From: Lophium mytilinum
Taxonomy: Eukaryota > Ascomycota > Dothideomycetes > Mytilinidiales > Mytilinidiaceae
DNA length: 64,000 bases
Assembly (NCBI GenBank): GCA_010093605.1
Contig: MU004181.1
Span: forward strand, 558,001 to 622,000
Direction: 5' to 3'
In this document: piece by piece, positions 24,404 through 62,639 of the stretch
Position numbering within the stretch: the first letter of the stretch is position 1
Layout of the letters: each line of letters opens with the position of its first letter
Notes under the pieces: generated by a model
The model's input: only the letters and a program-made list of their open reading frames with translations
Told to the model about the DNA's origin: nothing
Databases searched by the model: none
Position numbers and translations under genes: made by a program

Positions 24404-24419
24404 GTGGTCGTCTTGCTGC

Positions 24420-40564: not shown

Positions 40565-42178
40565 CTAGATGTGGAGCCAATTTTTCGTAGCAACCCACAT
40601 ATCTTTCAGCATAGCATTCAACGCTTGTTTGACCTCGCCCAGCCCTGTGACTTTCCGTCCTATCCCATTGCTGTTATCGTCCGTTGTACCAGCTCTCGAT
40701 AGCAAATCCACAATACTCAAATATTCTCTGGTGTCCTCATCGACGTCGAAGAGAATGATCTCACCAGTGCCTGGGCGCCGCCCGGGCGTGTATGGAGACG
40801 CCTCGGCCTGGACCAGTGCAAAAACAAAGATTTTCTTCAGCCTCAACATCGATTGAAGCTCATTTAGGATAACCATCCATCCTTTATCCTCCACTGTACT
40901 CTTCAAGACGACGTTCCCCGGGACCAGGATCCCGTCGTGTGTATGCACCGGGTGTGGCCTCAAAGCAGGGTCGGTCAAGATCAATTTCTCAAAGATGACT
41001 TCTTCCAAGCAACGCGCATGGCGACGTAGGAACCCAGCCAGGTCAGTTTTGTCAACAGTCATGTCGTGAAGGTGAATGGTCTTGAGCGCTGGAAGCTGAA
41101 GTCGAGTGAAGAGGCCGCTAACACACTCTATAGGCATGTGCGAGAAGTTGTAGCTAATATTTAGATGCTCAAGTTTTGTGGTGGCAAGGATGATGCGCGT
41201 GAAAATGTCCACGTCGAAGTACGGCTCCAACTTGATTGATAACTCTTCATTTCGCCAAAGTTCGGTCTGAGATGGTCCCCGCCAATCTTTCTGGTACCCT
41301 CGGCGGGCAATGTCCACTGTGAGCTTGCGTAGGTCTGAGAGTACAATATGGTACACCTGGAACTCAGTGGCGGGGAAGTGCAGAAATGCGTCAATATGAC
41401 TACTTTGCAGGTCCTTGAGGGTTAGAGCAAGCGTGGTTGGTTGCTTTTTGGCCTTCAGAAGGGCATCGAAAGCCATCGTGAGCTCGTGTAGGTGCATACA
41501 TTGCTTTGCTTCAGACTTCCGTCCTAGACGGTAGCAGGTGCGGCAATTCCAGCCCTTCATAGAGTATGTGGTCAAATTCCGACCGAAAGGAAAAAGTAGC
41601 TTTTCCCACGTTTCCGGGCGGTATTCCAGTATTTTGGGGCTGTCGTCAATACAGACCGACTCAAGGGCGGGTAAGAGGGTGAGAAGCTCGGCCATTGCCT
41701 CGGTGTGTGTCCCCGAGATATAGCTCGAAACCAGATCGTACTCATAGCGCCGTAGGTCCTCCCCTTCAATCTTCGACGATGCTCGGGCCTCTCTAGCCCT
41801 CCTGCGCTCCCTGCGTGACTGGAAAGGCTCGAGTACGGCCTCTGCTTTATAGATATGCTCCACCATTTCGTAGCTTACGTGACCAATGGTAATCTTTTTC
41901 ACATGAGACGCGAGTTCCTTGGACTTGAACACCTCAACAGAAGACGTAATAGTGTTCTTCCCAAAGACTCCTTTCCACTCACAGGCGTACCGTGTTGCAA
42001 ACGCGTGGAGGGACTTGTTGTACATATCTTGACATGTTGAGCGCAGGGCGAGTAACGAGGTCCTCCCATTCCCATCTTCTGATGATTCGAAGAGGAACTT
42101 CGAGATTTTGTCGATGATCTCGGGCGGGCAAGTCAGCAGTGGCGGCTGCCCCTCGGGGGCGCTTGGAAGCGATTTCAT
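40565..42178 (-). CDS. F-box protein E (substrate-adaptor candidate)
   Basis: Intronless, 537 residues, ATG at 42176-42178. The F-box is at about residues 14-60 (LLTCPPEIIDKISKFLFE), with a family-atypical insertion before LALRSTCQDMYNKSLH. Next come ELASHVKKITIGHVSYEM, shared with F rather than with the SRAGL members, and a candidate zinc site C212-x2-C215-x11-C227-x-H229. The middle has LRR-like segments (LEHLNISYNF, LPALKTIHLHDM). The C-terminus has IILFDVDEDTREYL but lacks the GWxFxG motif of other members. With F it forms a subgroup, and the two genes are divergent across about 745 bp, which suggests an inverted duplication. Confidence 0.8.
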   Translation of the reverse strand: MKSLPSAPEGQPPLLTCPPEIIDKISKFLFESSEDGNGRTSLLALRSTCQDMYNKSLHAFATRYACEWKGVFGKNTITSSVEVFKSKELASHVKKITIGHVSYEMVEHIYKAEAVLEPFQSRRERRRAREARASSKIEGEDLRRYEYDLVSSYISGTHTEAMAELLTLLPALESVCIDDSPKILEYRPETWEKLLFPFGRNLTTYSMKGWNCRTCYRLGRKSEAKQCMHLHELTMAFDALLKAKKQPTTLALTLKDLQSSHIDAFLHFPATEFQVYHIVLSDLRKLTVDIARRGYQKDWRGPSQTELWRNEELSIKLEPYFDVDIFTRIILATTKLEHLNISYNFSHMPIECVSGLFTRLQLPALKTIHLHDMTVDKTDLAGFLRRHARCLEEVIFEKLILTDPALRPHPVHTHDGILVPGNVVLKSTVEDKGWMVILNELQSMLRLKKIFVFALVQAEASPYTPGRRPGTGEIILFDVDEDTREYLSIVDLLSRAGTTDDNSNGIGRKVTGLGEVKQALNAMLKDMWVATKNWLHI

Positions 42179-42922
42179 AGGGTGAACTTTGAGAGATCGA
42201 TCGGATCTGGAAATAGCTTCTCTGCGATAGATTATGCAGTGGGCGGACAGTCCAGCTTTTGTAGAGGAGTGTTGCCTAGTGATCGCGGGGCAAATTGCAC
42301 TGATTACACCAAATCTCGGTAGACTGCAGTAGTTCTAGTTACACCACGTCTTCACGAGCCACGCGGGGCATGAGAGAAGTGGCACTCTGTTTTATCTTCT
42401 GTACACCTGTCTGCCGCTGTCTGTGGTACTTCGATGTTTTTTTTGAACTAGAAACGAGGAAGAAATTATGAATTTTGGGCTACGTGACATCCTGTTAAAG
42501 TACACCATGTAGTGGCAGACAGGTGCACCTAATTGGCCATAAGAAAACGTGAGAGTAGCAACAGTAAGTCGCATTCTACAGATCCGTGAGGTATGTCAAC
42601 CATTTTTACGCTTGTATAGCACCGTTTGAAATCCTCCAGTATGCTATTGCTATTCATGAAATACTAGCTTTGGCAAGCCTGATAGCTCTCCGGGCCACCT
42701 CAGCCGGTATTGAACCGCTGGAATGTGCCACGCTTTTCCTGTCTAGCGTGCGAGCTTCAAGCTAGCTGTTGTCTGAGTAGCCGGATAGATTCACCACAAT
42801 ATCACGATGCCGCGACGATAAACATTCATGGCAGTACATTCACCATATGTAGCGTGATATATCTAGAAAGCACGTTCAGCTTCAGTTCTTTACAAAGACC
42901 ACAACCTACCTACCACACCGGC
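42179..42922. promoter_or_regulatory. Divergent promoter region of F-box genes E and F
   Basis: About 745 bp between the ATGs of E and F. No named factor site can be claimed. The frame of F is open upstream to 42710, but the composition of that part is non-coding-like. Confidence 0.35.
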
Positions 42923-44539
42923 ATGTCCCTACAAGAAACCAGCCCCACCATGTCTACCTCTGTTAACAACATCGTCCGTATGCGTAAACACAAACCTAGT
43001 CTAAAGCTTTCGGCGGAAACACCACCATACGCGCCACCCCTACTTCGCCTTCCGGAGGAAATTGTTGAAAATATTGCTCGAAAGCTCTTCCTTTACCCCA
43101 TTTACCAAGCCGACGACGAGGACCGCAAGAAGGCCGGGGCAAAAGCGCTCTTCGCGCTCCGATTGACCTCCAAGGACTTGTATTGGAAGACTTATTACCT
43201 CTTCGGTAGACGCTTCTTCTCGTCAGGAACGCAAGTACTATTCGGCAGACATAGCCTCCATGATGGTGGCTTATCTTTGGACTACAACCGGGAATTCATC
43301 AAATTGTCGAAACATCAAGAACTTGCCAGCTTCGTTCGGAGCATCACCATCGGCCACGTGAACTTCGGACTGCCAGAGGAGTATTACGGGAAAGATTACC
43401 GCAAGAAAGCGTGGTTCAAAAAAGCACTTTATTGGGTCAAAGGCGATATGTCGCACCATTTCGCGAAGATCAAGAAAGAGCTCAAGTTATCCGATACGAA
43501 GTCTTTAGTCACAGCCATGGCACGCTTCCCGAATCTCGAAAAGATCGAGTTCAGCGACGAGCCGATATTCCACGGGGCGAAAAAGCGCTGGGTACGATTA
43601 GTTGCACCTCGCGGTGACAATGCAGCTCAAAATTGGTGCCCAACATGCAGTACACTACCGCTAGCAAGCGTTCGGACCCATGCGATCACGTCGATCATAT
43701 CTGCGCTGGCAACGGCAGGCATCAAGCCTCGAATCCTGGGCTTATACCCGTGTCTGCGACGGAAGCTTCGACGCTACCTGCAGAAGTTCCCCAACATCGA
43801 ATTTAAGGGGATAGCGGAGTTTTTTTCAGAAGTACGCGATTTGCAGATCAGCGTCTTCGACTGCAATTGCGACTATGATGCAAAGCTCTGCTGCGGATAT
43901 ACCAAGGGGCCGCCCTCTAGCTCGACGTCCGACTTCTTTGTACGATTGCTCCAGTCAACACCTCGCCTCGATAGGTTGTACATCTGCCACAACATCACGA
44001 ATGCGCCAACTCCATCAATCCAGAAGATGGTGGCCGCAGAGGTTCACATGCCGAAGCTCCAAACCCTTCACCTAGAACAACTTGGCGCGCATGCCGAGGA
44101 CCTTGTAATGCTGTTGAGGAGACACTCCGAGACCCTCGTAAAGGTGGAGGTGAATGCTGTCATCCTGACTCAAGGAACCTGGCAGGAGGTTCTTGAGGAA
44201 CTTCAAAGCTGTCCTCAGCTCATCGACTTTCGAATTGTTGCCCCTACCGAGGGTCAATTCATTCCAGGCAAGCTCCCAGACCTCGAGACGAAGCAGAGCA
44301 ACGTAAAGGGGCGTGTGCTTCTCTTCGGCGACAACGAGCCAAGGAAACAGGCATTCGCTCGGTGGAGCGATGCATCTATGCACCTTGTAGAATGGTTGGC
44401 GATTGTGAATAGGCCTCCGGGAGGAGACGACGATGCAAGCGGCTGGAAATTCAGGGGTAGGGAGGGGGTTGAGTCAGGTTTGCAATTTCTGCTAGAACAC
44501 ATGGAGTATTACATGTCCGTCTCTATTCCTAGGGTCTAG
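42923..44539 (+). CDS. F-box protein F (substrate-adaptor candidate)
   Basis: Intronless, 538 residues from the ATG at 42923; later ATGs at 42950 and 42977 are possible. The F-box begins near residue 36 (LLRLPEEIVENIARKLFL), with an inserted acidic/basic loop before LFALRLTSKDLYWKTYYLF. ELASFVRSITIGHVNFGL is shared with E. The zinc site is incomplete: C239-x2-C242 remains but the C-x-H half is replaced. The LRR-like middle (LDRLYICHNITN, LQTLHLEQLGAHAEDLVMLL) leads to VLLFGDNEPRKQ and the tail SGWKFRGREGVESGLQFL. The last 60 residues are nearly matched by the relic at 10303-10494, so F-like genes were once also in the first sub-cluster. Confidence 0.83.
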   Translation: MSLQETSPTMSTSVNNIVRMRKHKPSLKLSAETPPYAPPLLRLPEEIVENIARKLFLYPIYQADDEDRKKAGAKALFALRLTSKDLYWKTYYLFGRRFFSSGTQVLFGRHSLHDGGLSLDYNREFIKLSKHQELASFVRSITIGHVNFGLPEEYYGKDYRKKAWFKKALYWVKGDMSHHFAKIKKELKLSDTKSLVTAMARFPNLEKIEFSDEPIFHGAKKRWVRLVAPRGDNAAQNWCPTCSTLPLASVRTHAITSIISALATAGIKPRILGLYPCLRRKLRRYLQKFPNIEFKGIAEFFSEVRDLQISVFDCNCDYDAKLCCGYTKGPPSSSTSDFFVRLLQSTPRLDRLYICHNITNAPTPSIQKMVAAEVHMPKLQTLHLEQLGAHAEDLVMLLRRHSETLVKVEVNAVILTQGTWQEVLEELQSCPQLIDFRIVAPTEGQFIPGKLPDLETKQSNVKGRVLLFGDNEPRKQAFARWSDASMHLVEWLAIVNRPPGGDDDASGWKFRGREGVESGLQFLLEHMEYYMSVSIPRV

Positions 44540-45373: not shown

Positions 45374-46290
45374 ATGGGGGAGCTTCACGCACAGTCAGTC
45401 GTTACACTTTCTGTATTGATTTCTTGAAGCAAGATACCTAACCTAGATACGCAGATTCTCCCCAGACGCGGAGTTCTCCGACGTCGTCATTCGCGTTCAC
45501 CACCCCCCGATTACCTTGCCTGAGGGGACGCTGTTCACCGATTACAGACTCCACTGCGTGATCCTGAGCAGGCATTCTCGATTCTTCCAACGGATCCTTA
45601 CCGGCCCCTGTAGAACTGCTTTTCAAGGTTGCTGTGGCAGAGGTCCACGACCTGCACACGATCTCAAGGTACGCCTGTTGCCTCTCTCCCCTCGCAGTGT
45701 CGGAGAAGAAACCTAAAATACTAGAATAGGACGCCACTACCCCTACCAACGTTATCGAAATCCACGAAGAAAAACCTGTCTACTTTGACGCCATGATCCA
45801 GCACATGTACGAAGGCTCTTACAAACTCTGCGAAGCCCAGAGCGGAGCCGAGGAGATCCAGACCGTTGTGACACACGTGGGAATATATAAAACGGCACAG
45901 AAGTACGACAACATTGGCCTCCAATCATTCAGCGTCCAGGCCGTAACCGAGCTTCTGGCAGAGCTCGCGTCTTCTTCCAAAGCCAATCCATATGCAAGCG
46001 ATTGTGTCTATGAGATGGTCGCGATCAAAGCCGCCTGCGAGAAATTCTACAACATGGCGACTAAGACGAAATCAGCCATGGGTCGAGTCATCGCAAGCCC
46101 ATGCTGCGCTTGCGACGACTTGGTTGGAGCTCTGGAGTTCGAAGAAATGCTGAAGGAGAAACCCACTCTCGCTGTCGACATATTGCTTCACATCAATACC
46201 ACAAAGCCATCTTGTCAGGAGATCCAGCGCCGCTTCAAGGCAGTCACAGTGAGAGAGGTGTTAAAGGAGCCCCTCTCGAGAAAGATCTGA
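45374..46290 (+). CDS. BTB/POZ-domain protein 1
   Basis: Predicted exons 45374..45393, 45455..45668 and 45730..46290 (264 residues). Intron 1 has donor GTCAGT and branch CTAAC; intron 2 has donor GTACGC and acceptor AATAG. The BTB fold starts at FSPDAEFSDVVIRVHHPP, then RLHCVILSRHSRFFQRILTG, then NVIEIHEEKPVYFDAMIQHM with YEGSY. A helical region follows (IYKTAQKYDNIGLQSFSVQA), as in fungal BTB proteins without a second domain. BTB proteins can dimerise and bind cullin-3, presenting substrates for ubiquitination. The piece between the second and third BTB strands (around 45630-45668) is unusual, so the second junction is the least certain part. Confidence 0.7.
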
Positions 46291-46731: not shown

Positions 46732-47496
46732 TTATAAAATCTTAGACCTCCTCGTTCTGCCTCTTATCTGCTTTGGCTCAGGAATAAGTGCGAAAATAAC
46801 ATTAAGCGACAGTATATTCGATGTCTTACAGAGATCAATGATCACCTGATGATCCTGTTGTCCCGGACTTTGTGTCACGATCTCCTTCGCAATCGCACGG
46901 CCCATTTCCGACCCAATCTCATTGACACCTCGTCCAGGATAGTGTATGCCAACAGCAATCTCTAGTGCTTCTCGTATCCACGTTTCGCGGACTTTCTTTT
47001 TCGTTGCCGCAGAATTGCTTGGAATATCGCGCCAAGTCGTGAAGAGATGGGCGAATGCTTGGATCGCGCGCTCAGACAGTGCGGGAAGTCCATAATCTTC
47101 CGCGAGCTGATGCACTATGATGTGTTGCCTAGGAAAAGTGTCGGTGCTGAGACTGTGGAGAACTGCGCGGTGGTCGCTCTCGTAGTCGTATTCCAAGGTG
47201 TAGCAAAACTGCAGCATCTTCTTGAAACACTCTGAATCCTTCACAAACACGTTGATAACGTTCACATCTTCCTGCTATGCCAATCCGTGTTAGTTGTGGG
47301 AGTATTCGATTCCAGTTTTCCGCTTTCGACGTACCCTCAAAGCGTGTTGCCGGAACCAAGAAGAGTGAAGACAGAGGAGAACCATGTGAGCTTTGATATC
47401 TTCTATGGGACAGCCGGGGACATGAAGCCGTAGAGTCACGTCGGAGAGCTCGGGGTTATCGTATTGTCTATTCGTGTCAGTCAAAGAGTTTTCCAT
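46732..47496 (-). CDS. BTB/POZ-domain protein 2
   Basis: Exons complement(46732..47274, 47335..47496), 234 residues. The frame is open to a GTG at 47520, but the first ATG is at 47494-47496. The 60-bp intron has donor GTACGT, an ACTAAC branch and acceptor CATAG. The BTB domain covers residues about 15-90: NPELSDVTLRLHVPG, then AHMVLLCLHSSWFRQHAL, then NVINVFVKDSECFKKMLQFC and YTLEYD. A helical C-terminal half follows (HQLAEDYGLPALSERAIQAF), where BACK-like helices would be expected. Probable cullin-3 adaptor; substrate unknown. It shares the layout of BTB1 and BTB3 but is strongly diverged from them. Confidence 0.8.
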
Positions 47497-48596: not shown

Positions 48597-49378
48597 CTAT
48601 TCATGTGGGCTCTGGAAGAGCTTTCCACGGGCTGCTTGCACGAGAACGTGTACCGCAAAGATTGGAAACGCGCAGCCACATTCCTCGAATTGAGCAGTCC
48701 CAGTCAAATCAGCGTGAAGAACGACTCTAGCAAGCATCATACCAAGCTCAGAGTCTTTCTCGATCTTGCCTTTGTAGACATAGTGAATCAAGCTCCATAA
48801 TGTATGAACCGTGTTACGGCTCTCCCAATCCTCTTCTTTGGCGTCCTTGATCGGTCTAAGAAGAACGCCAGCCGCGGTTTCGGATGCGTGCAGAGCCTGG
48901 GAATGAAGCGGTGCCATTCCATATTTCTCGGCAGTCTCGATGATGGCGACTAAGCGGACTAGGTTGGGGTAGGGGTTTTTGTCTGTGGGGCAACAGAAAT
49001 AGTGCGTGTAGTCCTGGCCTAAGTGGTAGATGCAGCGGAGAATCGTTTCAAAGATGGCAGGCGTGTCGCCGTAGAGGTCAATGATGGTGGCGCTTTTGTT
49101 TGCTTCCTTCGAAACGCGCTTGTTAGCTTCTTAGCTGAGTAGTTGAGGGGGTGAGCATATACCTTCTCGGAGATTTTAGCCTCGAACCAAGTAGACTCCC
49201 GGCAGAGGATGATCTTGTGCGCATGGAAATCCATCTGGCCATGTTTGTCGTGCAGGCGGAGCGTGATATCCGAGAAACGAGGGTCGTTGAAGTATCTGGG
49301 GAAGTTAGCATTGTAAGAGAGCTTTCAGGATGCATCGCATGTCGCGCAGACTTACGTGGGTTTGCCTTCGAAGTCCAT
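48597..49378 (-). CDS. BTB/POZ-domain protein 3
   Basis: Exons complement(48597..49106, 49163..49295, 49356..49378), 221 residues. The introns are 60 and 56 bp, with donors GTAAGT and GTATAT and acceptors CCCAG and CGAAG. The first exon is only 23 nt (MDFEGKPT). The BTB domain reads YFNDPRFSDITLRLHDKHG, then FHAHKIILCRESTWFEAKI, then ATIIDLYGDTPAIFETILRC and IYHLGQDY. NLVRLVAIIETAEKYGMAPL and more helices follow, as in related fungal proteins. The exon pattern (tiny first exon, then the BTB core) resembles BTB1. Probable cullin-3 adaptor by family. Confidence 0.8.
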
Positions 49379-50517
49379 GATGGTGGTGATAGTCAGTGGG
49401 TTGCTGAAAACTGGGTTTCGGATGCTCACACAGGGGGGTTTAAGTAGAATTTTTGAACGGATGTCAAATGCCTGGTCACCTGGCGCAGGGCGGCTGAAGT
49501 GGGGACGCCACACTCAGATGCAATTCACCGTGTCATACAGATGTGATGTATCATTCCGCGCAAGGGAGATTGGGGGAGGATGCGAAGAACTTTTCGGAAA
49601 GAGCGGTGCGATACCAGCTAGACTCGGCGTGTAAAGAGAAGCGTTCGACGGAATAGGAGGACACCGCGTAGTCATGATCGACGTGGAAGAATTCGATAGA
49701 CTTCCCAGCGTCCTCAATGTTCCTATGAGACAATGAGGTCAGCTTTTTGCTGAACCGTCCTCGCGGCTCCAATGACCTTCGAGCAAACTCGGCTTACTGG
49801 GCATTGAGGGCTAGCTTTTTCATCTCCGCAAGCTCCATGACAGCGAGAGTTGAGACAGCCTGCGGGCCGGGAACTGCGGTGTTGTAGTCACGATGAAATT
49901 GTCGGAATGTAAGGTCAAGTTGCTACGCGGTATATCATACACTAAGACGGCACGATGAAAAACCATTCAGCCCCCTTCGCTCGAACACTGAGTTTGGCAG
50001 TGAATATGTTGCTTCTGGGAGAACTGCAATTACGGTCCACTTATTCTAGCTTCAACCTTGGATGGACATCCGGAGAGATCCCGAACAGGACTACCCGCAT
50101 AAGATGCTGGGATTGAAGAGATGAAGAGATATGACATCACAGACACGCTGTGCTCATGGTTTAAATTGCTGCCGTCGTGGACACGGCATGTAAACTGTGA
50201 GGTAATTGACATTAGATGGTGTGAGCGCGGTCTACGGAAATCAGTCCTGCAGTGCCAAGTCTGGAAATTTCGCTTCCTCAAGATTCCAAAAAGCTGGTAT
50301 TCCACAACATGTCAGGTCTTTCGGAGACTTTCTAGACTAGTCGCGTGTTTGAAGTCCTTTGATACTGCTACGCCAAGCAAACCAGAGGGTTTACATAACT
50401 TTGGTGTGGCCCACTTGCTCAAACGTCCTCCTAACATCACAGTCTCCTAAGCATCAACACGAGTCATTTCTACTTCCTTAAAGGGCTGGTCAGAACTCAA
50501 AACACTTTATCTACAAC
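49379..50517. other. Intergenic region between BTB3 and BTB4
   Basis: About 1.1 kb. It holds the truncated BTB-like ORF at 49551-49838. Nothing else recognised. Confidence 0.4.
49551..49838 (-). pseudogene. Truncated BTB-like ORF
   Basis: Splicing complement(49551..49722, 49798..49838) with donor GTAAGC and acceptor CATAG gives 70 residues. They end soon after FFHVDHDYAVSSYSVERFSL and HAESSWYRTAL, which resembles the start of a BTB domain (first strands, then the helix with SxWFxxAL). The rest of the domain is missing. It lies in the BTB array on the same strand as BTB2 and BTB3. Likely a decayed copy; the match is short. Confidence 0.4.
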
Positions 50518-51836
50518 ATGACCTCCCGAAAGCGAGAGGGATCGCCCATAGAGCAGCAAGGCTCTATAAAGCGGCGTCAGCATGGCATCGATACGAAGAT
50601 GGAAAATCCCGACCTTCCACTTGGAAAAAAGATGAGTGTGAAAATTGATGAGCTGACAAAATTGTTGCGTACTCAGCATACGCGCCGGCAGGACGAGCTT
50701 CAGGCCATCAAGAATTCCTTGGCTTTGTGAGTCCAGCTTTAAGGGCAGATACGGCTGCCTTCCATAAACCGCTACAAGGCTGACACCGAACAGATACTAC
50801 AACGAAACCGAGCTCTCTGACGTCGAAATACGTCTTCTTGATGTTCGTGGTGATGTGATTGAAGGCTCTCGGTATCGAGCGCACCGTTTAGTTCTGCATC
50901 AGTCGCTCGTCTTCGGGGAGTTGCTCTTTGCTCAGGAGCGACATCGGGTCCCAACAGACTTGTCTCGCGTATAGTTATCTTGGCTTGACGATGTTGAGAG
51001 GAAACTTACTTTAGTCATAGGAACCTTACGTTGAATCCATTCTACGCGTACCAGAGCAATCTCTCAGAGACATCGAACAATTCTTCCAGAGCACGGCAAA
51101 CGATCCCAGTGCGCAGACTGATCGAACCGAAGACACGATTAGAGCTTGGCTCAAGCTATATGCCGACCACGTGGTGCAGAACGAGTCACAGTAGACACCG
51201 AGCATGGATCCTATGCGTGGAGTTGTGGTAAAAAAGACTGTGGAGAACGACGTGACAGTTCTCAACATACAGGGTGTAGGAAAGGACGGTTTCGAAGAAG
51301 TATTGCGGCTCCTCTATGATAGCATACATGACTCAAAGGATCCCGAAATTTCCGACGAGGACGGACTTACGAACGAATTCCAGCGGAGTATGAACAAAGC
51401 AATCGTAGCAACGAAGTTTCAAGTCCATGCTCTGCAAGTTGCTTGCAGCGAGCGCCTCAAGAATGCTGCGACAAAATCTATGGAACGTGCAAACGGGATT
51501 CACCAACCAGACAAGATGGACGAATTTCACACCGCTCTCAGCACTGCGATATGTTTGTACTATTCCAATGCACCAGCCTCATCTCCACACGACCCGATCG
51601 GCCGTACGATCAGTGACCTCGTGACAATCGATGCGAAGGAATTTCTCAAGACAGAAGACTTCAAGGAACTTGTCGCGATGTTTCCTGACTTCAAAAGTCA
51701 TATGAAAATTACAGGAATTAAAGTCGGTCTTACGTCCGAGTTTACATTAGTGGAGCAGCCGCCCATCCAAAATATGTCAACAGGCGAGGCGACAGCAGAT
51801 ACCAAGTCAGCGCCGGGAGGTTTATTGGGCACCTAA
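50518..51836 (+). CDS. BTB/POZ-domain protein 4, with an in-frame TAG
   Basis: Exon 1, 50518..50726, encodes a basic, helical N-terminus. Exon 2 from 50794 carries the BTB start (YYNETELSDVEIRLLDVRGD, then RYRAHRLVLHQSLVFGELLF) and ends at 50968 (donor GTATAG) or 50947 (donor GTCCCA). A third exon from 51021 is open to a TAG at 51192-51194, and the same frame continues to 51836. It gives the expected BTB end (VTVLNIQGVGKDGFEEVLRL, then LYDS) and helices. Acceptor CAGTAG at 51194 could remove the stop: intron 51048-51194, or one long intron from 50969. Both donors are weak. Otherwise the gene is broken by one nonsense codon. BTB membership is clear; integrity is not. Confidence 0.6.
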
Positions 51837-52661: not shown

Positions 52662-54188
52662 ATGTCATTCAGCAATACAGGCGGGGGAAAGCGAGCGGAG
52701 GCTTTCGACAAAACGGATATATCGACGGCAGCCCCGAGGAAGCGAATTAAGAATGAAAATGAACGAGCGGAGGAAAAGACGCCATGCCATGGAGGCGCTA
52801 CACTCCTCGACTTCCCTGCCGAAATCATCGATCATATCGCCCAATTCCTACCGCGAAACAGCTTCCTCGCTCTTCGAGCCACCTGCACCGATCTGCAGCA
52901 GAAGACGGACTATCACTTCTCGCGGCGTCATCTGAAAGAGAAGCACGTTGTGCTGAAATTTAACAGGTCACGTGCAGGCCTACTTGCGCTCGTCGAACTC
53001 GCTAGCAACGCGTCCTTTGCAAATTGTGTCCAAAAGGTAGTCATTGGCATGGACTGCGGGTACTATCCGTACGCTGTCCATCGTATCACCCCTCATTCTT
53101 ACAGGTACAATACCGGAAAATTAGGCTGGCCGGCTTACTTCCTTGATCCTCCGCTTGAGCAATCGAGAAGCGACGGAGGTGTCGCGGTCGCGATGAGTGT
53201 CTTATTCGCGTCTCTTGCGGCATTGCCTTCCCTCGAAGTTCTCGAATTCGTTGATGCGCCTGACAACGCAGAGGGCACCCTCCTACCAGCCCAAGACATC
53301 CTTCACTCCCAGCGAGCGAAACCATTCGTTGACCTGTCGTGGTGCAACCGCTGCAAGAAGCCTTCCGTCTTTGGTCAATGTGTCCACAAGACCATGCTTT
53401 GCAAAGCCGTGGCCCATATGACAGAGTTCAGAGTAGATCTACCCGATCACACACACGCCCTAGGGCTTTCAAGTCTCTTGCCAGACATCAAAGCCACTTG
53501 GCCTGGCGAGCACGGGAGACGTCTTGAATTAGACTTACTGCGTGAAATCCACTTCTCCGGTGAGCACGACTCGTTGTATCAGTACGATCGGTACTACTGG
53601 AGCCTGTGGCAGGATCTCTTCAATTACTCACCACAGCTCGAACATCTCAACCTGAATGGAAGCATGATCCCATCTTCCAGATTATGGGACCAATGCTGGT
53701 CTTCAGTCAACCTTCCATCTGGCTTATTGACATCATTGTCACTTCATGGCCTCAACATCTCCTCAAACAAGTTAGCCGCCTTGTTTCAGCAGAACGGCGC
53801 CTCGCTACACCACGTCAGCTTAGATGGTGTCATGCTCACTCGAACGACTTTTCCCTATCAATTTCCACCTATAGATGTTTTCCTTAACGTACTAGCTCAA
53901 TACGCGGAAAAGTTAAAGTACATCTTCATTCGCGCGATCTTCCACAAGAACCGACCTTATCTCTTTGGTGACGAAACCTCGTCGGAAAGACTGCAAGCCT
54001 ACCTCTCTCATGAAAGCAAGCGGGTTAGGGATGAGAACTTTTCAATTTGGCGCTTCTCCGGCCCAAATGCTCAAGCCACGAGCAACTCCCGGGATCTGAC
54101 CGGGTGGAAGTTCGAGGGCGAAGAGGTGGAAGCGGGGCTTGTATTCCTGCGTGACAATGCGCGGCTTGCGCCTGATAATTGGCTCTAA
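52662..54188 (+). CDS. F-box protein G (substrate-adaptor candidate)
   Basis: Intronless, 508 residues from the ATG at 52662. The longer frame from 52434 is unlikely coding. A basic patch (APRKRIKNENERAEEK) comes first, then the F-box at about residues 46-90 (LLDFPAEIIDHIAQFLPRNS, then FLALRATCTDLQQKTDYHF). SRAGLLALVELASNASFANC and a complete candidate zinc site C228-x2-C231-x8-C240-x-H242 follow. The middle is LRR-like (LEHLNLNGSM, LTSLSLHGLNISSNKLAALF). The end has PYLFGDETSSERL and SRDLTGWKFEGEEVEAGLVF. It is closest to H, I and J by the LPRNSFLALRxTCxDL block. Convergent with H; a repeat R copy lies 111 bp past its stop. Confidence 0.87.
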   Translation: MSFSNTGGGKRAEAFDKTDISTAAPRKRIKNENERAEEKTPCHGGATLLDFPAEIIDHIAQFLPRNSFLALRATCTDLQQKTDYHFSRRHLKEKHVVLKFNRSRAGLLALVELASNASFANCVQKVVIGMDCGYYPYAVHRITPHSYRYNTGKLGWPAYFLDPPLEQSRSDGGVAVAMSVLFASLAALPSLEVLEFVDAPDNAEGTLLPAQDILHSQRAKPFVDLSWCNRCKKPSVFGQCVHKTMLCKAVAHMTEFRVDLPDHTHALGLSSLLPDIKATWPGEHGRRLELDLLREIHFSGEHDSLYQYDRYYWSLWQDLFNYSPQLEHLNLNGSMIPSSRLWDQCWSSVNLPSGLLTSLSLHGLNISSNKLAALFQQNGASLHHVSLDGVMLTRTTFPYQFPPIDVFLNVLAQYAEKLKYIFIRAIFHKNRPYLFGDETSSERLQAYLSHESKRVRDENFSIWRFSGPNAQATSNSRDLTGWKFEGEEVEAGLVFLRDNARLAPDNWL

Positions 54189-54640: not shown

Positions 54641-55955
54641 CTACATGAGCATCTCGTCCATATTACTCAATAAGAATTCAATACCCGGCCGCACGTCCTC
54701 TCCTTCAAACCTCCATCCACTCTTCAGTCCTACCGCGACTTCGGCATGCTTCCACGTCTCCCAATTGTCCTCAGGCCGGCTTATGAAGAATGGAAGCACG
54801 TAGAGAGACTCCAACTTCGTACATTCGAGCATTGAGGACAGCACAGCGGAATTATGATCGCTTGAAGAGTTCCTGAAAAAGACGCATTCTAAAGAAATAT
54901 GCAGCAAAGAGTCCTTGCAATGCCGTAATAGGCGACAAAAATCGTTCTGTCCCACACGGAAACCATTGAGCGTAAGCGTTGTGAGCCTGTTTGTAGCATA
55001 ATGATGGTTCGGGATGGGGTACCATGTAGTAACATCGACCTCGAAGACCCTGCTTCTTCCTACGGGGTTGGCATTGGCGTTGAAGCTTTCTAGCTTTGAG
55101 GCAAATTGTAGGACGTAGTTGCAAAGGTCTTTTAGCGGCTTGTTGTCCTCGTTGTTGTCAGATCCGATCAATGGTGACTTTGGCGAGGCGTGAAATCGTA
55201 TCTCCCGTAAAGAAGGTAAGCGGTTCAGGTCTGGTATCTCCGCTAAAGCTCTGCTTGGTATGACGTTCTCAAAGCCGAAAGCCCTACTGGTCGTTGAGAA
55301 GAATTCAGAACCTCCCGCAAACCGGCATATTGCTCTGCAGAGGGTCGTAAAATGAAGACACTGGCCAAATACCGGAGGCTTCTGGCACCTGTGGCATAAC
55401 CAGGTATCTCCTACTCCCACTCGACCGTAGCTCTTATTGCCTAGGATAGTCCGATTCTTAGCGGGCACTTGCTTGATCTCAAGTGATTCCAAACGCTGGT
55501 AGATCCTCCAGAGCTACGAAAAGCATGAACATGATCACGCTAAACGAAGCGGCCCATGACTGCGTCCTATCGGGGTCTTCAAGGTACTGGGTCCAATCAA
55601 TCTTCAAGACTCTGGGATAAAAGACAACGCGAGTCTCGTCGTCGGCTTCGAGTTCCAGTACCACCTTTCGAGTATGCGGCGCAAAGCTGTAGTTCGCTAG
55701 TTCAATGAGAGATTGCAGACCAGCCCGAGACTTGGTGGGAAACGAGACCCGCTTCTCTGCAAGATGGCCACGTTCGAAGTGATAGTTGGCCCTTTGCTGC
55801 AGGGCTTTGCAGGTGGCACGGAAAGGTAAGAAGGAATTTCGAGAGAGGAATTGGGAGATGAGGTCGATGATCTCTCCTGGGCAATCGAGGATATGGGTAT
55901 TGCTTGACAGAAGCTCGTGTGGAAGCTCTGATATATGCTCCGCCATCCCTGACAT
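54641..55955 (-). pseudogene. F-box gene H, one-base frameshift
   Basis: From the ATG at 55953-55955 the reading gives an F-box (HILDCPGEIIDLISQFLSRN, then SFLPFRATCKALQQRANYHF), SRAGLQSLIELANYSFAPHT, and ends VALEDLPAFGIT-stop. The other frame continues at once with LESLEIKQVPAKNRTI, then a complete zinc site (CHRC-x8-C-x-H, reading CHRCQKPPVFGQCLH), an LRR-like middle and the tail SGWRFEGEDVRPGIEFL down to 54641. The break is one extra T on the coding strand (an A in the plus-strand run at 55491-55493). Without it the frame reads DLPALESLEI, matching paralogue G (LPSLEVLEF). Everything else looks intact, so the lesion is recent, or a sequencing error. Without the shift it would encode about 435 residues. 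Confidence 0.85.
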
Positions 55956-57122
55956 GTTCCCCTGTGTTTGGTTTCTCTGCCAGAGCGTAACAGAACGCGT
56001 GGGTGGTGGGGGGGGTGTAGTGAAAGGCCAGTGGACGAGTTTTGGCCAAGGGGAGATCTTCAGTTATGACGTAAGGCTTGTCATAGTATGTTTATCCATT
56101 CACGACGGAGAAAATCTTCGGTTCACTTCCAGGATTCTAAAGCTATCGACCGGTATCGTCTCAATCTTCAACTACCAAGGTGAATTCCCGTCCACTACTC
56201 CGCATATGGACCTACATGTAGAATTTTTCAAAGGCTAAGAAGCTATACTGACCACAAGTCTAGGCACACTAGCTCGATACCGCATGGGGTTCCGGGTTCC
56301 CCCACAGGATTGTGAAGATCCAAGGGTGATGTCGAGGTTCAAGCAGTGCAAATTGGCATACCTCTTGACTAATTGGCTGCTCGATAGCCAGGCTACCCCC
56401 GACAGTGGTGCCGAGTGAGCAAATTGGAGCCAAGCTTCAATGAGTCTATGTGCGCAGACTGGTGGCTTAGTACTGTAACTCGTCCACCCTTAACGCTGAA
56501 GCGGGATGACCATGGTACCACATGTCACCCAGTGTCTGAATGAAGTTGAGAAATGAGGTCTTACAAATTCCGCAACATGTAGCCTAGATAGACGGTGGTA
56601 AACGGTATATTTACCCTTTGAAATAGACGTGAGTAGACTTTAGCGAGACTGCTATAGAATCATTTCAAATAAATTCATCATTACAACATAGAGAAGTTAT
56701 CTATCAGGAGATGCTAAGAATTTCTCGAATTGCGCTTAGGGCATTATATAATTATATACTATCCCAGGCTAGCGTAGCTACACATACGCTATCACGTATG
56801 CTCTATATACTTGATATGAAGTTCTACTTCTGGAGAATAGAGTCATGATGGCCAGAAATCACGAGAGGATATTCGCGGTCCAAAAAGGCCGACGCCAGGT
56901 TGATTGCGGCAGAAATTGTAGGTTACGATTTATTAAGTGAGCTAAAAGCGGTCCGTGCTCATCACGCACCTGTCCTCCTACTGGTCTCCAGCAGGCCCTC
57001 CATCCTCCTCCACCCTCCTCACTCCTCACCCAACCTTCACCATCCACATCTCTTAAGCTTACTTCTATAACTATCGGTGAGGCCAACTGCCAGGCTTCTT
57101 CACCTCTTCCGCCTTCGACACC
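55956..57122. other. Intergenic region between H and I
   Basis: About 1.17 kb, holding repeat R (56251-56430). The part from 56.5 to 56.85 kb is A/T-rich. ORFs seen on the minus strand at 56.86-57.26 kb mirror gene I. Confidence 0.45.
56251..56430 (+). repeat. Dispersed repeat R, copy 5
   Basis: Best reference copy: TAGGCACACTAGCTCGATAC, CCAAGGGTGATGTCGAGG, TTCAAGCAGTGCAAATTGGC, CTCTTGACTAATTGGCTGCT, AGCCAGGCTACCCCCGACAG, TGGTGCCGAGTGAGC. It has the same order and spacing as the other copies. No ORF and no clear terminal inverted repeat by eye. Confidence 0.7.
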
Positions 57123-58490
57123 ATGCCCATAGTCAACTGCCCTAGCGAGATTGTGGATCTCATCGCACAATTCCTGCCTCGTAACAGCTTTCTGGCTCTG
57201 CGACGCACATGCAAAGATCTGCACAAGAAATGCGAATATCATCTCACAACGAGACATCTAAAGCAGAAACGCGTCATCCTCGCAAAGCAGACGAACGCCG
57301 GCTTGGACTCTCTCATTGGCCTTGCGCATCATGAATTATACGCGGCCCGTGTGCAAAAGATCGCTCTTGAGTTAGAAGCATACCACCTTCTTCCGGTCAG
57401 CAATGAGGACTGCGCCTGCTGGGAACCGGCACCAAAGACGCCAACAATACGAAGTCGAAGGCTCGACATCGCCATACTCCTATCGTCGCTTATGGAATTC
57501 CCGAATCTGCAGGTCTTGGAAGCAGTGAATAGATTCTCAGACTCTGCTATCTCGACTGGCCAAACCAATAAGACGTCCTTCACTGAATGGCTATCTACTG
57601 CCGCCTATATCGATAAAAATCCTTCTAGACTACCTCTGAGGCGTGGTACGCACCTCGCCACGCTTTACAACGCCCTCATAGCACTAGCAGGCACCAGTGA
57701 GAACCTGGGCCGGATAGCGGTGGACCATGGCGTCTCTTCCACTAGACTTTCCGCGCTGGCACAGGACAGAGCTGCATACAATCAAGCGTCACCTATGATT
57801 TATGGTCCATCCAATGGCATCTGCTTCAGCTCGCTGCAAGAGATCACGATCCAGGCCAACCAGGCAATGATATATCACAACGCCTGCCACGAGATGAATT
57901 TCCTCGAATACCTCCTCCGCACCGCCCCGCGATTGGAAAAGCTAGTTCTGAACGGCGGTTATATCGTCAACAACGAAATAACCAAAATATGCTATGATAC
58001 AATCATGGAATCTATCGAATGGAACCCAGAAATGTCTGTCTGGGCATCAGAATGCCTCACGTCGCTCAATCTCGGGAATCTGAAGATTTGGAGGCTGGAA
58101 GACTTGTTTACAAGGTATAATGGCACGCTTCGACATGTGATGCTACATGGTTTGGAGCTTGTTAACGCGTCAATGAGCTTCGTTGCACTCGAAGACTGTG
58201 CGGAGCTTGAGTCGCTGGCTGTTCACGCTATTTGTGATCTCGATCTCTACTTCGCCATCTATCCTTGGGCCTTTGGAGACGGCGAATCGCTGCAAGAGCT
58301 GAGGCAGCTCTTTTATTTGAAGACGAGGACCTTCTGGGAGGCTCAGCAGATGTGGGCGGAGGCCAAGGTGCCGGACGGCACAGATCCAGACGGCGATCAG
58401 GACATGACAGGATGGAGATTCGAAGGATCGGGCGTCATGGAGGGAGTTAGGTTCCTCGCGGCCAACGGGAAGAAGGTGTATGGGTACTGA
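57123..58490 (+). CDS. F-box protein I (substrate-adaptor candidate, no zinc site)
   Basis: Intronless, 455 residues, ATG at 57123. The F-box is right at the N-terminus (VNCPSEIVDLIAQFLPRNSF, then LALRRTCKDLHKKCEYHL). NAGLDSLIGLAHHELYAARV follows. The C-x2-C...C-x-H site is absent. In its place is a helical stretch (HLATLYNALIALAGTSENLG) that K also has. The LRR-like middle is LEKLVLNGGYIV, LTSLNLGNLKIWRLEDLF. The end has PWAFGDGESLQELRQLF and QDMTGWRFEGSGVMEGVRFL. I and K form a subgroup that has lost or never had the cysteines. Confidence 0.85.
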   Translation: MPIVNCPSEIVDLIAQFLPRNSFLALRRTCKDLHKKCEYHLTTRHLKQKRVILAKQTNAGLDSLIGLAHHELYAARVQKIALELEAYHLLPVSNEDCACWEPAPKTPTIRSRRLDIAILLSSLMEFPNLQVLEAVNRFSDSAISTGQTNKTSFTEWLSTAAYIDKNPSRLPLRRGTHLATLYNALIALAGTSENLGRIAVDHGVSSTRLSALAQDRAAYNQASPMIYGPSNGICFSSLQEITIQANQAMIYHNACHEMNFLEYLLRTAPRLEKLVLNGGYIVNNEITKICYDTIMESIEWNPEMSVWASECLTSLNLGNLKIWRLEDLFTRYNGTLRHVMLHGLELVNASMSFVALEDCAELESLAVHAICDLDLYFAIYPWAFGDGESLQELRQLFYLKTRTFWEAQQMWAEAKVPDGTDPDGDQDMTGWRFEGSGVMEGVRFLAANGKKVYGY

Positions 58491-58852
58491 ATGGATAAGT
58501 GGTAAAGTACACTCTCGGTAGAAGATAGCTAATTGGTTCACACGGGTCGAATCAGTCTTGGAAGGCTGTACTGTCACTAAGCTTCAGCAGACAGCTTGGA
58601 ACAGATATCGTAGCATTAATGTCCATGAAATGTTGGAAGGGCCACTCCATGCAAACCACAATGCAACAGAAACTTGTGTCATTGTTCAAAAAGGTAGAAA
58701 AAACTCTCCATGTAGAACAATTTGTCCTTGATTACCACTCGCTCTCTTGAAACAAACATGGGGAAAGCTCATTCGTTATGTGCCTCCCCGGGCATGATCT
58801 GCTAAGAGCAGGAAGCAAACCCGAAGAAGAGAAACCTTCAATCACAGCAAGC
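58491..58852. other. Spacer between convergent I and J
   Basis: About 360 bp, 3' flanks of both genes. No repeat R found. Confidence 0.4.
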
Positions 58853-60844
58853 CTATACATCCCAAGTTCGTGCCCGATCCCACAGGAATGCCGCTCCCGG
58901 ACCCGCAGCATCACCCTCGAACTTCCAGCCTACCACATCCCTATTCCGCTCTGGGTCGGGAACCTTCGGATGCTCGGTGAGCCGCCATTTTTCGAAAGAT
59001 TGCGCGTCTGTCGGCGCGAAGCCAATGAGGAACTTGCGCAACTCGAGAACCGACTCATCGTCGCCGAAAACGATGGGAATGTGATGAGGTATGAAGGCAT
59101 GGAGTCTGAAAATAGCACGAACGAAGAGATAGTCGAGGCTTTCGCACTGCATAAGCGCCCGTACAATTCTCATTGGAGCGTTTGTCATAATGCCTTCCAA
59201 GGTGATCTTGCGGAGAGTGCTCTTGTATCGGTCGATGAGCTTGGATGTAGATATCGAATCAACGCAAAGATAGCCCAGCGTCAGCGAGGTCAGCTGCTTT
59301 GTCGCGAAAGACTGCAGATCTGGATGCCAGCGACCATAGTCTATGTAGACATTGGGGTTCCGAAAGCGGTCACAGTCACCGTTTAAGGTGATGGACTCCA
59401 ACTTGGGCGCTGAGCGGAACACGTAGTTCCAGAAACTCCATTTGTGTTTCCTATTGTAAAGAGAGACTGGGTTTCCTCGGAGTTGGACCCTGCGCAGAGA
59501 ATGAAGCGGATGAGGGAGAAGGGGATCGACGTCTTCGTCATCTACGATTGGGATCGCCCCGAGACGTTGACCAAGTGATAGAGTCCTCTGAACGGGCGGA
59601 ATTGGTCCATTGGTAACCTGGGTGTCTAGGGGAGGCCCGTTTGGTACCACATCCAGAATAAGTCCTTGGAGTGCCTTGCTAAGCATCGTCAGATGGACGC
59701 AACGTCCCACTGTTGCAGATTGCCTGCAGCGATGGCAGCGCTTGTTGTTCATGAATGGAACCGCTCCACCTGTTTCGAATAGCGGATGCCGATCAAGTAA
59801 ATCCTTAGGTTGTTCGTCGGTAATTTCGATGGTCTCTAGTTCTGGTAATGCTGCGAGAGAGGCAATGAAAAGACCGAAATCTACGGTATACTTACTCACT
59901 ACTAGCATTCCAAGGTCCAACATGGCGTCATGGAAGTATAAGTCTGGGCAAATGGACTCGCATTGGCGGGTAGGCCCGTTGCGTAGACTGCAGACGATAA
60001 ATGCTTTGAGGTTCCCGCATTCAACAACCACCTTGCGAACACGCTTTGCGAAGCTAGATTGGCTGGCGATTTCGACGAGGGAGTGAAGGCCTGCACGGGA
60101 GCGATCAAGCGCAAGCCGCTTCTCCTGACCGTGGCGTTGCTCGAAGTGATAGGTTGTCTTCTCCTTCATGTCGTTGCAGGTACCTCGAAGGGCCAGGAAG
60201 CTGTTGCGAGGCAGGCATTGGGCAATAATGTCGATAATCTCGCCAGGACATTCGAGGAGACCGGCCGGTGGGCTCGGAGATACTTGAGGAAGATCACCGC
60301 GTTTTGTGACCTCGAAGGAGCCGGGAATTTGCATTGCTTCGAAGATCTCCCTAAGCTCATCGAGGATTGGCTTCGTCGTAGCTACGCTTCGGGGCTTCTT
60401 TTGGGCTGGTTCTCCTCTGTCTTTTGGCATGTCTCCCACGCTGTACATGGGCCTGAATTCACTAGTCCAAGGTAGAGTATCAGGATCTGGGACGGTCAAA
60501 TAGCTCCGATATCCGGTACCAGCCATCTGTGGTGGACGAGGCCAGTAATATGACGCACGGGGGATTGAGTGTACTGGCATTGCTGGGCGCGTTCGCCAAT
60601 CCGGGGGAGGTCGCATGCTGAGGGGGAGTAATACACGGCGTCCAGCCTTTCGAGTTGATGCGGCCGCGTTTGCTTCGGTAGCTTCTTGATAGTTTCGGCC
60701 TTCAACGTCCAAGTGCGCGTCGTTTAACCTCCTCTTGGAATCTTCGACGAGAGTTTCCTTGACATTTTCATCCAAAATCTTGGTTGAATAAGCACGATGA
60801 GGTGGGCCATCGTCAAGAGGATCAAGGTGTTGAGGGAGTGACAT
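58853..60844 (-). CDS. F-box protein J (substrate-adaptor candidate, long N-terminus)
   Basis: Intronless, 663 residues from the ATG at 60842-60844. The frame is open to 61054, but that adds leader-like sequence. About 190 residues of Pro/Arg-rich, probably disordered N-terminus are followed by the F-box near residues 196-240 (LLECPGEIIDIIAQCLPRNS, then FLALRGTCNDMKEKTTYHF). SRAGLHSLVEIASQSSFAKR and a complete zinc site C370-x2-C373-x8-C382-x-H384 follow. The middle is LRR-like (LESITLNGDCDRF, LTSLTLGYLCVDSISTSKLI), with PIVFGDDESVLELRKFL and NRDVVGWKFEGDAAGPGAAF at the end. It is the longest member and is divergent from K. Confidence 0.86.
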   Translation of the reverse strand: MSLPQHLDPLDDGPPHRAYSTKILDENVKETLVEDSKRRLNDAHLDVEGRNYQEATEANAAASTRKAGRRVLLPLSMRPPPDWRTRPAMPVHSIPRASYYWPRPPQMAGTGYRSYLTVPDPDTLPWTSEFRPMYSVGDMPKDRGEPAQKKPRSVATTKPILDELREIFEAMQIPGSFEVTKRGDLPQVSPSPPAGLLECPGEIIDIIAQCLPRNSFLALRGTCNDMKEKTTYHFEQRHGQEKRLALDRSRAGLHSLVEIASQSSFAKRVRKVVVECGNLKAFIVCSLRNGPTRQCESICPDLYFHDAMLDLGMLVVSKYTVDFGLFIASLAALPELETIEITDEQPKDLLDRHPLFETGGAVPFMNNKRCHRCRQSATVGRCVHLTMLSKALQGLILDVVPNGPPLDTQVTNGPIPPVQRTLSLGQRLGAIPIVDDEDVDPLLPHPLHSLRRVQLRGNPVSLYNRKHKWSFWNYVFRSAPKLESITLNGDCDRFRNPNVYIDYGRWHPDLQSFATKQLTSLTLGYLCVDSISTSKLIDRYKSTLRKITLEGIMTNAPMRIVRALMQCESLDYLFVRAIFRLHAFIPHHIPIVFGDDESVLELRKFLIGFAPTDAQSFEKWRLTEHPKVPDPERNRDVVGWKFEGDAAGPGAAFLWDRARTWDV

Positions 60845-61226
60845 GGTGTGGTGTTGAGGATTTGGGTGGTGGGGCTTGTGGAGAGAGGGATGCAGGTTGG
60901 GAGAAAGAATCGGCAGGGCTTTTATACGCGAGCATTGACCGGAATTTTCCAAGGCGAGTTGGTGAATGATCTTAACAATGTAAACCGGATCAGCTGGGCA
61001 CAGTGGTAGGTAGGTCACACTATGATAGAACACATTCACCAAGATTCTAAACAATATGCACTATATTCTGATCACATGAACACCCTCGTACTAGTAGTTC
61101 CCCCAGCTCCAGTTCCTTCATTACGTGACAACCACCAACCCTCTATCTAACCGCCCACCACATCTCCAGCCACTTCTTGAAGCTTTTCCAATTTATCTCC
61201 AACCCTCGAGTCATCACTATCCAGCC
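60845..61226. promoter_or_regulatory. Divergent promoter region of F-box genes J and K
   Basis: About 380 bp between the ATGs, a spacing close to that of the A/B pair (385 bp). A TTTTATA stretch lies about 75 bp upstream of the J ATG. No factor site claimed. Confidence 0.4.
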
Positions 61227-62639
61227 ATGTCTTCTTCTGGTTCCAACGAGATGGCACTGAACGCTGGTCATAAGAAGGCGGGTTCCATCCCAGAGCAACC
61301 GGGCCGGTCACTACATCCTCCATCAGTGAATCCGATACTGAGTATTCCGGCGGAACTCATCGATATGATCGACCAACACCTACCACGCAATTCCTTTCTT
61401 GCCCTCCGACAAACTTGCAAAGATTTGATGCAGGAGACAGATTATCATCTGACTGAAAGGGTTCTTAAAGAAAAACGGATCATCTTCGCCAAGAGCTCTC
61501 GTGCCGGACTGCACTCTCTTGCCAATTTCTGCAACCACCCTCCATACGCCAATCGCGCCGAAAAGGTGGTAATTGCCCTCGAAGCATCATTCCTAGCATT
61601 AGCTACCGACAGCCTCGAGGACGAGCGTAATCGGCATCCCGAGTCCAGCAAACTGTTGGACAGGCAACGCATCGCAGACCTCGGCCTTATTATGGCTTCG
61701 CTTAGTGCCTTACCAGCTCTCGATACCGTCGAAGTCGTCGACGCACACGCTAGTACCTCTAATACGTTTGGAAGCCCTAGCAAGCGACTGTTCAGCGCAT
61801 CTGAGCAAGCAACATACACCAACATGCTCCACAAAGGCCTCGTGGCATTAGCAATAGGCCAAACACACCTCCAAGAGCTAGCCCGGCTCTTCAACGTCCC
61901 CCTCCCCACATTGGTCGCTCTAGTCCAGGATTGGGATAACTACGGAAACGCGAGGCCCTGGGATCCCCGAGGATACTCTTCCCTCAAGTCACTCCGCACG
62001 CTGAAGATCCACGCGGACCCATACATGCTGTACCACGATTACAATTACGACTTCAACCTCCCCGAGCTTCTCATGGCCTCAGCCCCAGCGCTCGAGAGAC
62101 TCGATGTCAACGGGGGCTGCCTCGTGTACGAACACGAGACAGCCATTGTCCCGTTCTGGACAGTGGCTAAGATGATGGACTTGGGCCCTCAGTGCATGAG
62201 GTCGGTGACGCTCCGCAATGTGCGTATCAGCAACTTATGCCCGCCGTTCGGTACCTGGCTTGGTGGTACGATGCGTCAGCTCACCCTTGAGGGTGTCGCG
62301 ATAGAGAGGGGCGCGAGGATCGCTTTAGAAATGTTAGCGACGTATCCGAGTCTGACGTCTATTTCTGTGCGCGCAATCTTCGATGTCGATCAGCGTAGCG
62401 GAACGTGGCCGTGGGTGTTTGGGACGATAGATGAAGAGATGCTGTTGCGGGATTTCTTCTTCTTGGGGGCGCGGACTATGGAAGAGGGGCGCGAGATGTG
62501 GCGGAAGAGAGAGATAAAGGTGGATGATGTTCCTGGCTCTGAGTACAATCGCGACTTGGTCGGATGGAAGTTCGAGGGGGAGGGTGTAGCGGCAGGGGTG
62601 AAGTTCTTAGCAGAGAACGGTCGGAGACTGCAGAGGTAG
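61227..62639 (+). CDS. F-box protein K (substrate-adaptor candidate, no zinc site)
   Basis: Intronless, 470 residues from the ATG at 61227; the longer frame from 61125 looks like leader. The F-box is at about residues 33-75 (ILSIPAELIDMIDQHLPRNS, then FLALRQTCKDLMQETDYHL). SRAGLHSLANFCNHPPYANR follows, then, as in I, no Cys cluster but a helical segment (LHKGLVALAIGQTHLQELAR). Other features are LKTLKIH-like repeats, LERLDVNGGCLVYEHETAIV, PWVFGTIDEEMLLRDF and the tail NRDLVGWKFEGEGVAAGVKF. Closest paralogue I. It ends the adaptor array on the right. Confidence 0.87.
   Translation: MSSSGSNEMALNAGHKKAGSIPEQPGRSLHPPSVNPILSIPAELIDMIDQHLPRNSFLALRQTCKDLMQETDYHLTERVLKEKRIIFAKSSRAGLHSLANFCNHPPYANRAEKVVIALEASFLALATDSLEDERNRHPESSKLLDRQRIADLGLIMASLSALPALDTVEVVDAHASTSNTFGSPSKRLFSASEQATYTNMLHKGLVALAIGQTHLQELARLFNVPLPTLVALVQDWDNYGNARPWDPRGYSSLKSLRTLKIHADPYMLYHDYNYDFNLPELLMASAPALERLDVNGGCLVYEHETAIVPFWTVAKMMDLGPQCMRSVTLRNVRISNLCPPFGTWLGGTMRQLTLEGVAIERGARIALEMLATYPSLTSISVRAIFDVDQRSGTWPWVFGTIDEEMLLRDFFFLGARTMEEGREMWRKREIKVDDVPGSEYNRDLVGWKFEGEGVAAGVKFLAENGRRLQR

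Follow-up and report, generated by a model that had tools for sequence, protein, structure and literature searches.

Several systems are known in which the parts of the present locus occur. In FBXL proteins, the established substrate receptors of SCF ubiquitin ligases, the F-box holds Skp1 and the leucine-rich repeat (LRR) surface holds the client (PMC7729025, PMC13117327), and in Caenorhabditis the F-box genes are subject to tandem duplication and high turnover and form clusters on chromosome arms (PMC10015627, PMC12062965). Both the F-box and the BTB classes were reported to be expanded in Parachlamydiaceae, in tandem arrays with birth and death of genes (PMC4209131), and in fungi an allorecognition based on NOD-like receptors (NLRs) has been described (PMC9262711). 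Within the Dothideomycetes, F-box and NACHT families were found contracted in cold-loving species, with a BTB family in the table of expanded families (PMC11412873), and F-box, BTB and NACHT genes of nematode-trapping fungi stand in one expression table (PMC3828140); all these statements are given as they stand in extracts of the sources. Expanded F-box and BTB families are usually treated singly, and no description of a mixed F-box/BTB locus in fungi, with or without NLR genes, was found among the open-licence papers listed, as judged by title or start of abstract. Here we describe such a locus in a stretch of 64,000 nucleotides (the window) of Lophium mytilinum, positions 558001–622000 of contig MU004181.1 (C1). 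Between 40.5 and 62.7 kb (approximately C1:598–621 kb) the window carries an array of seven F-box/LRR-family genes (A, B, H–L), four short BTB-family genes (C, D, E, G) and a BTB-like fragment (F). With moderate confidence, we read this array as one copy of an old mixed block of FBXL-type F-box and short BTB genes near NLR genes, which grows and decays by duplication and of which a second copy lies at C1:33.6–66 kb. Positions without prefix refer to the window, and those with C1, C2 and so on to the contigs of the genome searched (43.18 Mb, 24 contigs). The array consists of:

A, 40565..42178, minus strand: F-box/LRR-family gene, 537 amino acids (aa) in one open frame; a divergent member whose F-box contains an insert
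B, 42923..44539, plus strand: F-box/LRR-family gene, 538 aa, head to head with A
C, 45374..46290, plus strand: short BTB protein, 264 aa, three exons (model made by eye)
D, 46732..47496, minus strand: short BTB protein, 234 aa, two exons (model made by eye)
E, 48597..49378, minus strand: short BTB protein, 225 aa, three exons (model made by eye)
F, 49551..49793, minus strand: BTB-like fragment, a resemblance seen by eye alone, with no Pfam match
G, 50518..51836, plus strand: divergent BTB-like gene of uncertain model, in which an in-frame TAG is avoided only by assuming a longer intron
H, 52662..54188, plus strand: F-box/LRR-family gene, 508 aa
I, 54641..55955, minus strand: broken F-box/LRR-family gene, two overlapping pieces in different frames
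J, 57123..58490, plus strand: F-box/LRR-family gene, 455 aa, sister of L in the trees
K, 58853..60844, minus strand: F-box/LRR-family gene, 663 aa
L, 61227..62639, plus strand: F-box/LRR-family gene, 470 aa, head to head with K

Genome searches, made in one direction with window genes as queries, located the second mixed locus. H was found to have relatives in the window, at C1:34–38 kb and at C2:53.6–59 kb, besides three isolated ones on C17, C10 and C11. The relatives of E lie at C1:39–41.5 kb, next to the F-box genes found with H on C1, the best at C1:40.8–41.5 kb (103.2 bits to C1:40843–41325), followed by D and two weak matches on C13; C showed its best relative at C1:39171–39890 (39.2 kb; 125.7 bits), and D matched E only, besides itself, at E ≤ 0.01. 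An F-box gene from the left part of the window (M3, listed below) had its best genome matches in the F-box genes at C1:34–36 kb (151.6 and 129.7 bits). A profile scan of C1:33.6–66.5 kb divided the F-box genes there into one whole member (P1), one whose frame ends short of the C-terminal part (P2) and broken pieces (P3), and recovered the BTB genes C′ and E′, further BTB genes X, Y and Z, and one fragment. In trees, C and C′ as well as E and E′ were sister pairs with good support, which were kept when four rows were left out; the clade of M3 with the second-locus F-box genes had a support of 92/91 and was unresolved in the reduced tree. Since C, E and M3 each match the second locus best, two lineages of BTB genes, and probably one of F-box genes, would already have been together before the loci separated. 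The interleaving of F-box and BTB genes is probably old and copied as a block, and a joint duplication of the two kinds of genes seems likelier than a chance meeting. That the two adaptor classes, clustered according to a preliminary description of the window, belong together is better supported than was known there, because the second locus shares separate lineages of both.

An ORF-by-ORF comparison (open reading frames of at least 70 aa, E ≤ 1e-4) of C1:1–70 kb with C1:538–642 kb showed only F-box, BTB, NLR and DUF7730 genes to be shared, and a partial control, C2:34–74 kb against both regions, shared only F-box genes. A third site of the array F-box family was found at C2:53538–59117, with no BTB relatives in the 40 kb examined. 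The end of the contig nearest the second locus (C1:1–5000) has a GC content of 24%, unlike the remainder, and the first 10 kb contain no run of telomere repeats (TTAGGG 0, CCCTAA 1).

The locus was also shown to exceed the 40.5–62.7 kb to which it had at first been confined. Three more F-box members, alignable end to end with the array members, and a relic of a B-type gene lie at 6.1–12.7 kb, and a weak relative was found to the left of the window:

M1, 6135..7703, minus strand: F-box/LRR-family gene, F-box 17.6 bits
M2, 8089..9771, plus strand: F-box/LRR-family gene, F-box-like 15.1 bits, head to head with M1
Relic, 10306..10494, minus strand: 63 codons of a B-type C-terminus, 61% identity to B over 56 aa
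M3, 11147..12730, minus strand: F-box/LRR-family gene, F-box 13.5 bits
R, C1:551011–552555: weak F-box-family relative, 49.8 bits, no Pfam match

Five F-box pairs at the two loci are arranged head to head, with start codons 299–1168 bases apart, and it is possible from this arrangement that the pairs share promoters:

M1/M2, 6135–9771
A/B, 40565–44539
I/J, 54641–58490
K/L, 58853–62639
P1/P2 (second locus), C1:33632–36833

In all seven F-box pairs compared (chosen from nine genes), the protein was conserved over third codon positions, while some two thirds of the residues, or more, differ from member to member, as expected for receptors of different clients. A recent duplication was rejected on the identities of the longer F-box alignments (about 21–36%) and of C–C′ and E–E′ (36–37%), as well as on the few short repeats noted below, and chance ORFs were rejected because the frames are long, intronless and alignable end to end.

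The F-box assignment was examined at several levels (Pfam PF00646, cut-off 20.5 bits). At full length, a Pfam scan of eight array ORFs gave an F-box match at E ≤ 1 in four, namely J (17.2 bits, the best), H (16.8), the 5′ piece of I (13.8) and L (12.6), and none in A, B, K and the 3′ piece of I. When the F-box segments were isolated (12 segments, with A and B left out and four from other loci included), 11 of the 12 matched PF00646 at E ≤ 0.1 and the H segment passed the cut-off (20.9 bits); all full-length F-box scores lay below the cut-off, and with this correction the domain assignments and the mixed array of the preliminary description held. The segment profile also aligned with seven F-box segments from the same genome (hhalign probability 89.5%, E 2e-6). 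A predicted model of H (predicted local distance difference test score, pLDDT, 66.7) showed F-box-like helices at residues 53–90 followed by an LRR-like solenoid of alternating strands and helices, and that of A (pLDDT 63.4) N-terminal helices followed by an LRR-like strand/helix solenoid. For A and B, the assignment to the F-box family rests on whole-length homology (A with 419 bits to a family hidden Markov model that had A itself in its training set) and on the model of A. A search of the PDB with the whole-family profile was led by LRR proteins. In the fold comparison, which used the VIA-align rows, FBXL17 was among the best matches of both H and A; the Foldseek list was led by NLRP and TIR1 chains with low template modelling scores. 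Together, the segments, the profile comparison and the two predicted folds support an F-box domain in the array family, and the models, made for H and A only and of middling confidence, support a predicted LRR solenoid after it, as in the FBXL architecture. The members share an extra GWxF motif at the C-terminal end.

Among the spliced BTB proteins, three of the five candidates passed Pfam (E 43.5 bits, D 31.8 and C 24.3, with a cut-off of 20.5 for C), whereas G remained below its cut-off at 16.6 bits and fragment F had no match; open frames were recovered for all four BTB-family genes and for the seven F-box genes, one of them frameshifted. The pieces of G scored 34.4 and 22.7 bits with a BTB profile of the locus built without G, and C, E and G have an intron ahead of the first BTB strand at roughly the same position and in the same phase, as judged by eye. 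These proteins are short, with a C-terminal region in which no domain was recognised: besides the BTB domain, spliced C, D and E had no other Pfam match at E ≤ 1 and no recognised MATH domain, and G had a sub-threshold match to DUF6284 (12.6 bits, cut-off 27.4). Because no substrate domain was recognised in them, the role as cullin-3 adaptors proposed in the preliminary description is unsupported; as judged from the sequences, they may be such adaptors with an unrecognised tail, dimerising regulators, or clients. Another BTB group, some members of which are split over exons, was observed at C11:70–74 kb and C8:1856–1859 kb. It carries C-terminal paired CxxC motifs that look zinc-ribbon-like by eye, and the three rows used in the trees formed a clade of their own in both the full and the reduced tree.

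No Pfam match at E ≤ 0.01 was obtained for ten selected ORFs of 80 aa or longer, of which seven lie in the gaps of the array and three just outside, and NCBIfam gave no match for five proteins tested. As far as these selected ORFs go, the earlier statement that the array holds no other recognisable gene stands.

NLR-type ORFs (PigL_N, NPHP3_N, ankyrin) were found near both loci. At C1:20.6–23.7 kb, three adjoining ORFs matched PigL_N (37.8 bits), NPHP3_N (127.8) and Ank_2 (133.6), and at C1:630–642 kb NPHP3_N (67.4) and Ank (100.5) were above the cut-off and two PigL_N matches (17.3 and 26.6) below that of 27.2; these candidate receptors have the fungal NLR domain set of an N-terminal domain, a NACHT-type nucleoside triphosphatase and repeats. 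C1 carries six of the genome's 70 NPHP3_N matches, located at 21, 535, 632, 637, 640 and 1869 kb (the last one weak). Just left of the NLR ORFs at 630–642 kb, the ORF C1:628183–629334 resembles a PGAP1-like hydrolase weakly (17.5 bits, below the cut-off of 24.3) and could be part of an NLR-type architecture. The window itself contains a HET gene (22760–24424, minus strand, 100 bits), which was rejected as support for non-self control and means little, since at least 152 HET matches are present in the genome (best 150 of 274 candidates scored). Arrays of DUF7730 genes were observed on C1 at 10.4–16.0 kb, near the second mixed locus, and at 369–388 kb; with 99 matches in the genome, this family was likewise rejected as support.

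The left and right F-box groups of the window are separated by a copper transporter, the HET gene and an ATG22-type transporter, and by two long genes that we take, by eye, to resemble DNA ligase IV and FMP27. Close to the window edge, a partial indoleamine 2,3-dioxygenase match (699–1340, minus strand) scored 26 bits, right at the cut-off. The GC content over the array is ordinary (47–52%), and a repeat search detected only three short repeat families of 41–58 bases. Repeat-induced mutation was rejected as the cause of gene decay, the composite index being negative in every bin of the 40–62 kb interval (−0.30 to −0.74) and slightly positive (0.03) only in the bin of 62–64 kb.

Under the reading of an old mixed block, the F-box proteins would be substrate receptors of SCF (Skp1–cullin-1) ligases whose diverged solenoids bind different, and probably changing, proteins; the BTB proteins would be partners or clients in the same pathway, and use in non-self recognition or stress would be the likeliest reason for the turnover. 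Two results weigh against the F-box assignment: none of the eight array ORFs reached the Pfam F-box cut-off at full length, and the segment profile by itself retrieved no PDB chain at E ≤ 1. From the second locus it is no more than 66 kb to the end of the contig, where the first 5 kb have 24% GC; both loci include broken or shortened members (I; P2, P3), which is also what birth and death would give, and DUF7730 genes form an array elsewhere on C1 (369–388 kb). These last three points would suit a duplication-prone compartment that gathers large, fast-turning families (F-box, BTB, NLR, DUF7730), in which a segment was copied once and the ordinary genes were lost from one copy, with no joint function. 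Turnover of several families without joint function is ordinary, and we give this explanation an appreciable, if minor, likelihood. It is countered by the conservation of the proteins over third positions, by the separate lineages that match the same second locus best despite deep divergence, and by the distribution of the two families in the remaining genome. The 78 F-box and 63 BTB Pfam matches formed no pair within 20 kb (2.6 expected from cluster counts), one within 30 kb (3.8 expected) and five within 50 kb (6.2 expected), where both lists are lower bounds (for the F-box the best 150 of 186 candidates were scored) and the F-box genes of the array itself are absent from the list. Since the listed pairs are at or below expectation, no general tendency of F-box and BTB genes to co-locate is indicated, and a general clustering of F-box, BTB and NLR genes was rejected on the same grounds. 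On the evidence of a single genome, the array may be a functional block or a by-product of a duplication-prone region, and an accumulation of duplicated genes was also the alternative raised in the preliminary description. A chance misjoin of unlinked contigs is by far the least credible explanation: the array is internal to a contig of 3,848,845 bases with no N in the 104 kb around it, so that the assembly collapse considered in the preliminary description is unlikely; the two families are interleaved on both strands, and the B-type relic ties the left part of the locus to the right part.

The array had also been proposed as a possible store of diversity for substrate recognition, for example in self/nonself control. 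If it were a self/non-self module, the NLRs would guard the F-box/LRR and BTB proteins beside them, or be under their control, and a mismatch of alleles would lead to cell death, as with NLRs in fungal allorecognition. For the NLR at C1:21 kb, the best match apart from itself, among 44 listed including it, is at C1:640 kb, with 179 bits; the next, on C22, scores 145.9. Four of the six NPHP3_N matches on C1 (21, 632, 637 and 640 kb) are within 20 kb of a mixed locus, and another, at 535 kb, is some 15 kb away from R. These related NLR genes near both loci are circumstantial evidence for the proposal, to which the HET gene contributes little. Over the whole genome, however, the listed F-box and BTB genes are about as near to NLRs as expected; between the adaptor genes and the closest NLR ORFs there are about 10 kb, and the flanks were chosen after the fact. 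We consider the module unlikely. Ranked below it, and doubtful, is a relation of ligase and client. FBXL17 in humans has BTB domains among its clients (SCF-FBXL17, dimerization quality control), and the F-box/LRR proteins of the array might likewise recognise the adjoining BTB domains, neighbours co-evolving as pairs and hence being inherited together. In the fold matches of H, FBXL17 is equalled by FBXL2, KDM2B and SKP2, proteins with other clients, for A it is outranked by RanGAP, and the F-box site on C2 has no BTB neighbour; with the FBXL17 match tied or outranked, this relation is kept as a rival explanation and not as a finding. A combination of both, in which NLR, FBXL-type and BTB genes are kept and duplicated as a unit, the F-box proteins controlling the stability of the neighbouring BTB proteins as FBXL17 does and the NLRs sensing the state of that pair, is improbable. 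If true, it would connect the innate immunity of fungi with ubiquitin-ligase adaptors through the way the genome is organized.

The presence of two related mixed loci in a genome in which the listed F-box and BTB genes are otherwise apart offers a natural test of joint selection on the two adaptor classes. If the linkage holds in other fungi, it would provide a small, defined gene set for testing ubiquitin-based non-self recognition, and also the policing of BTB proteins by FBXL-type ligases outside animals.

Compared with FBXL proteins such as SKP2, FBXL2, FBXL17 and yeast Grr1, the predicted models of H and A have a similar organization, with helices at the place of the F-box and then a strand/helix solenoid, except that the array F-box scores below the Pfam cut-off at full length and the shared GWxF motif is additional. 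The likeness to SCF-FBXL17 lies in the F-box/LRR and BTB classes standing side by side and in a predicted fold match among the best; the difference is that other FBXL proteins tie in fold. The PigL_N, NPHP3_N and ankyrin ORFs near both loci resemble the fungal NLR allorecognition genes of the STAND (signal transduction ATPases with numerous domains) type, and are located outside the 40.5–62.7 kb array itself. With the Caenorhabditis F-box genes, as far as the extracts describe them, the array has tandem duplication and turnover in common. A parallel expansion of MATH-BTB genes in Caenorhabditis was reportedly described by Thomas in 2006; the array differs in having both classes interspersed over 22 kb and together at two loci, and in that no MATH domain was recognised in its BTB proteins. 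The Parachlamydiaceae, according to the extract, are alike in having both adaptor classes expanded in tandem arrays, but these genes are bacterial, and the Protochlamydia family PEX1 joins the BTB domain to LRRs, whereas in the array the LRR goes with the F-box.

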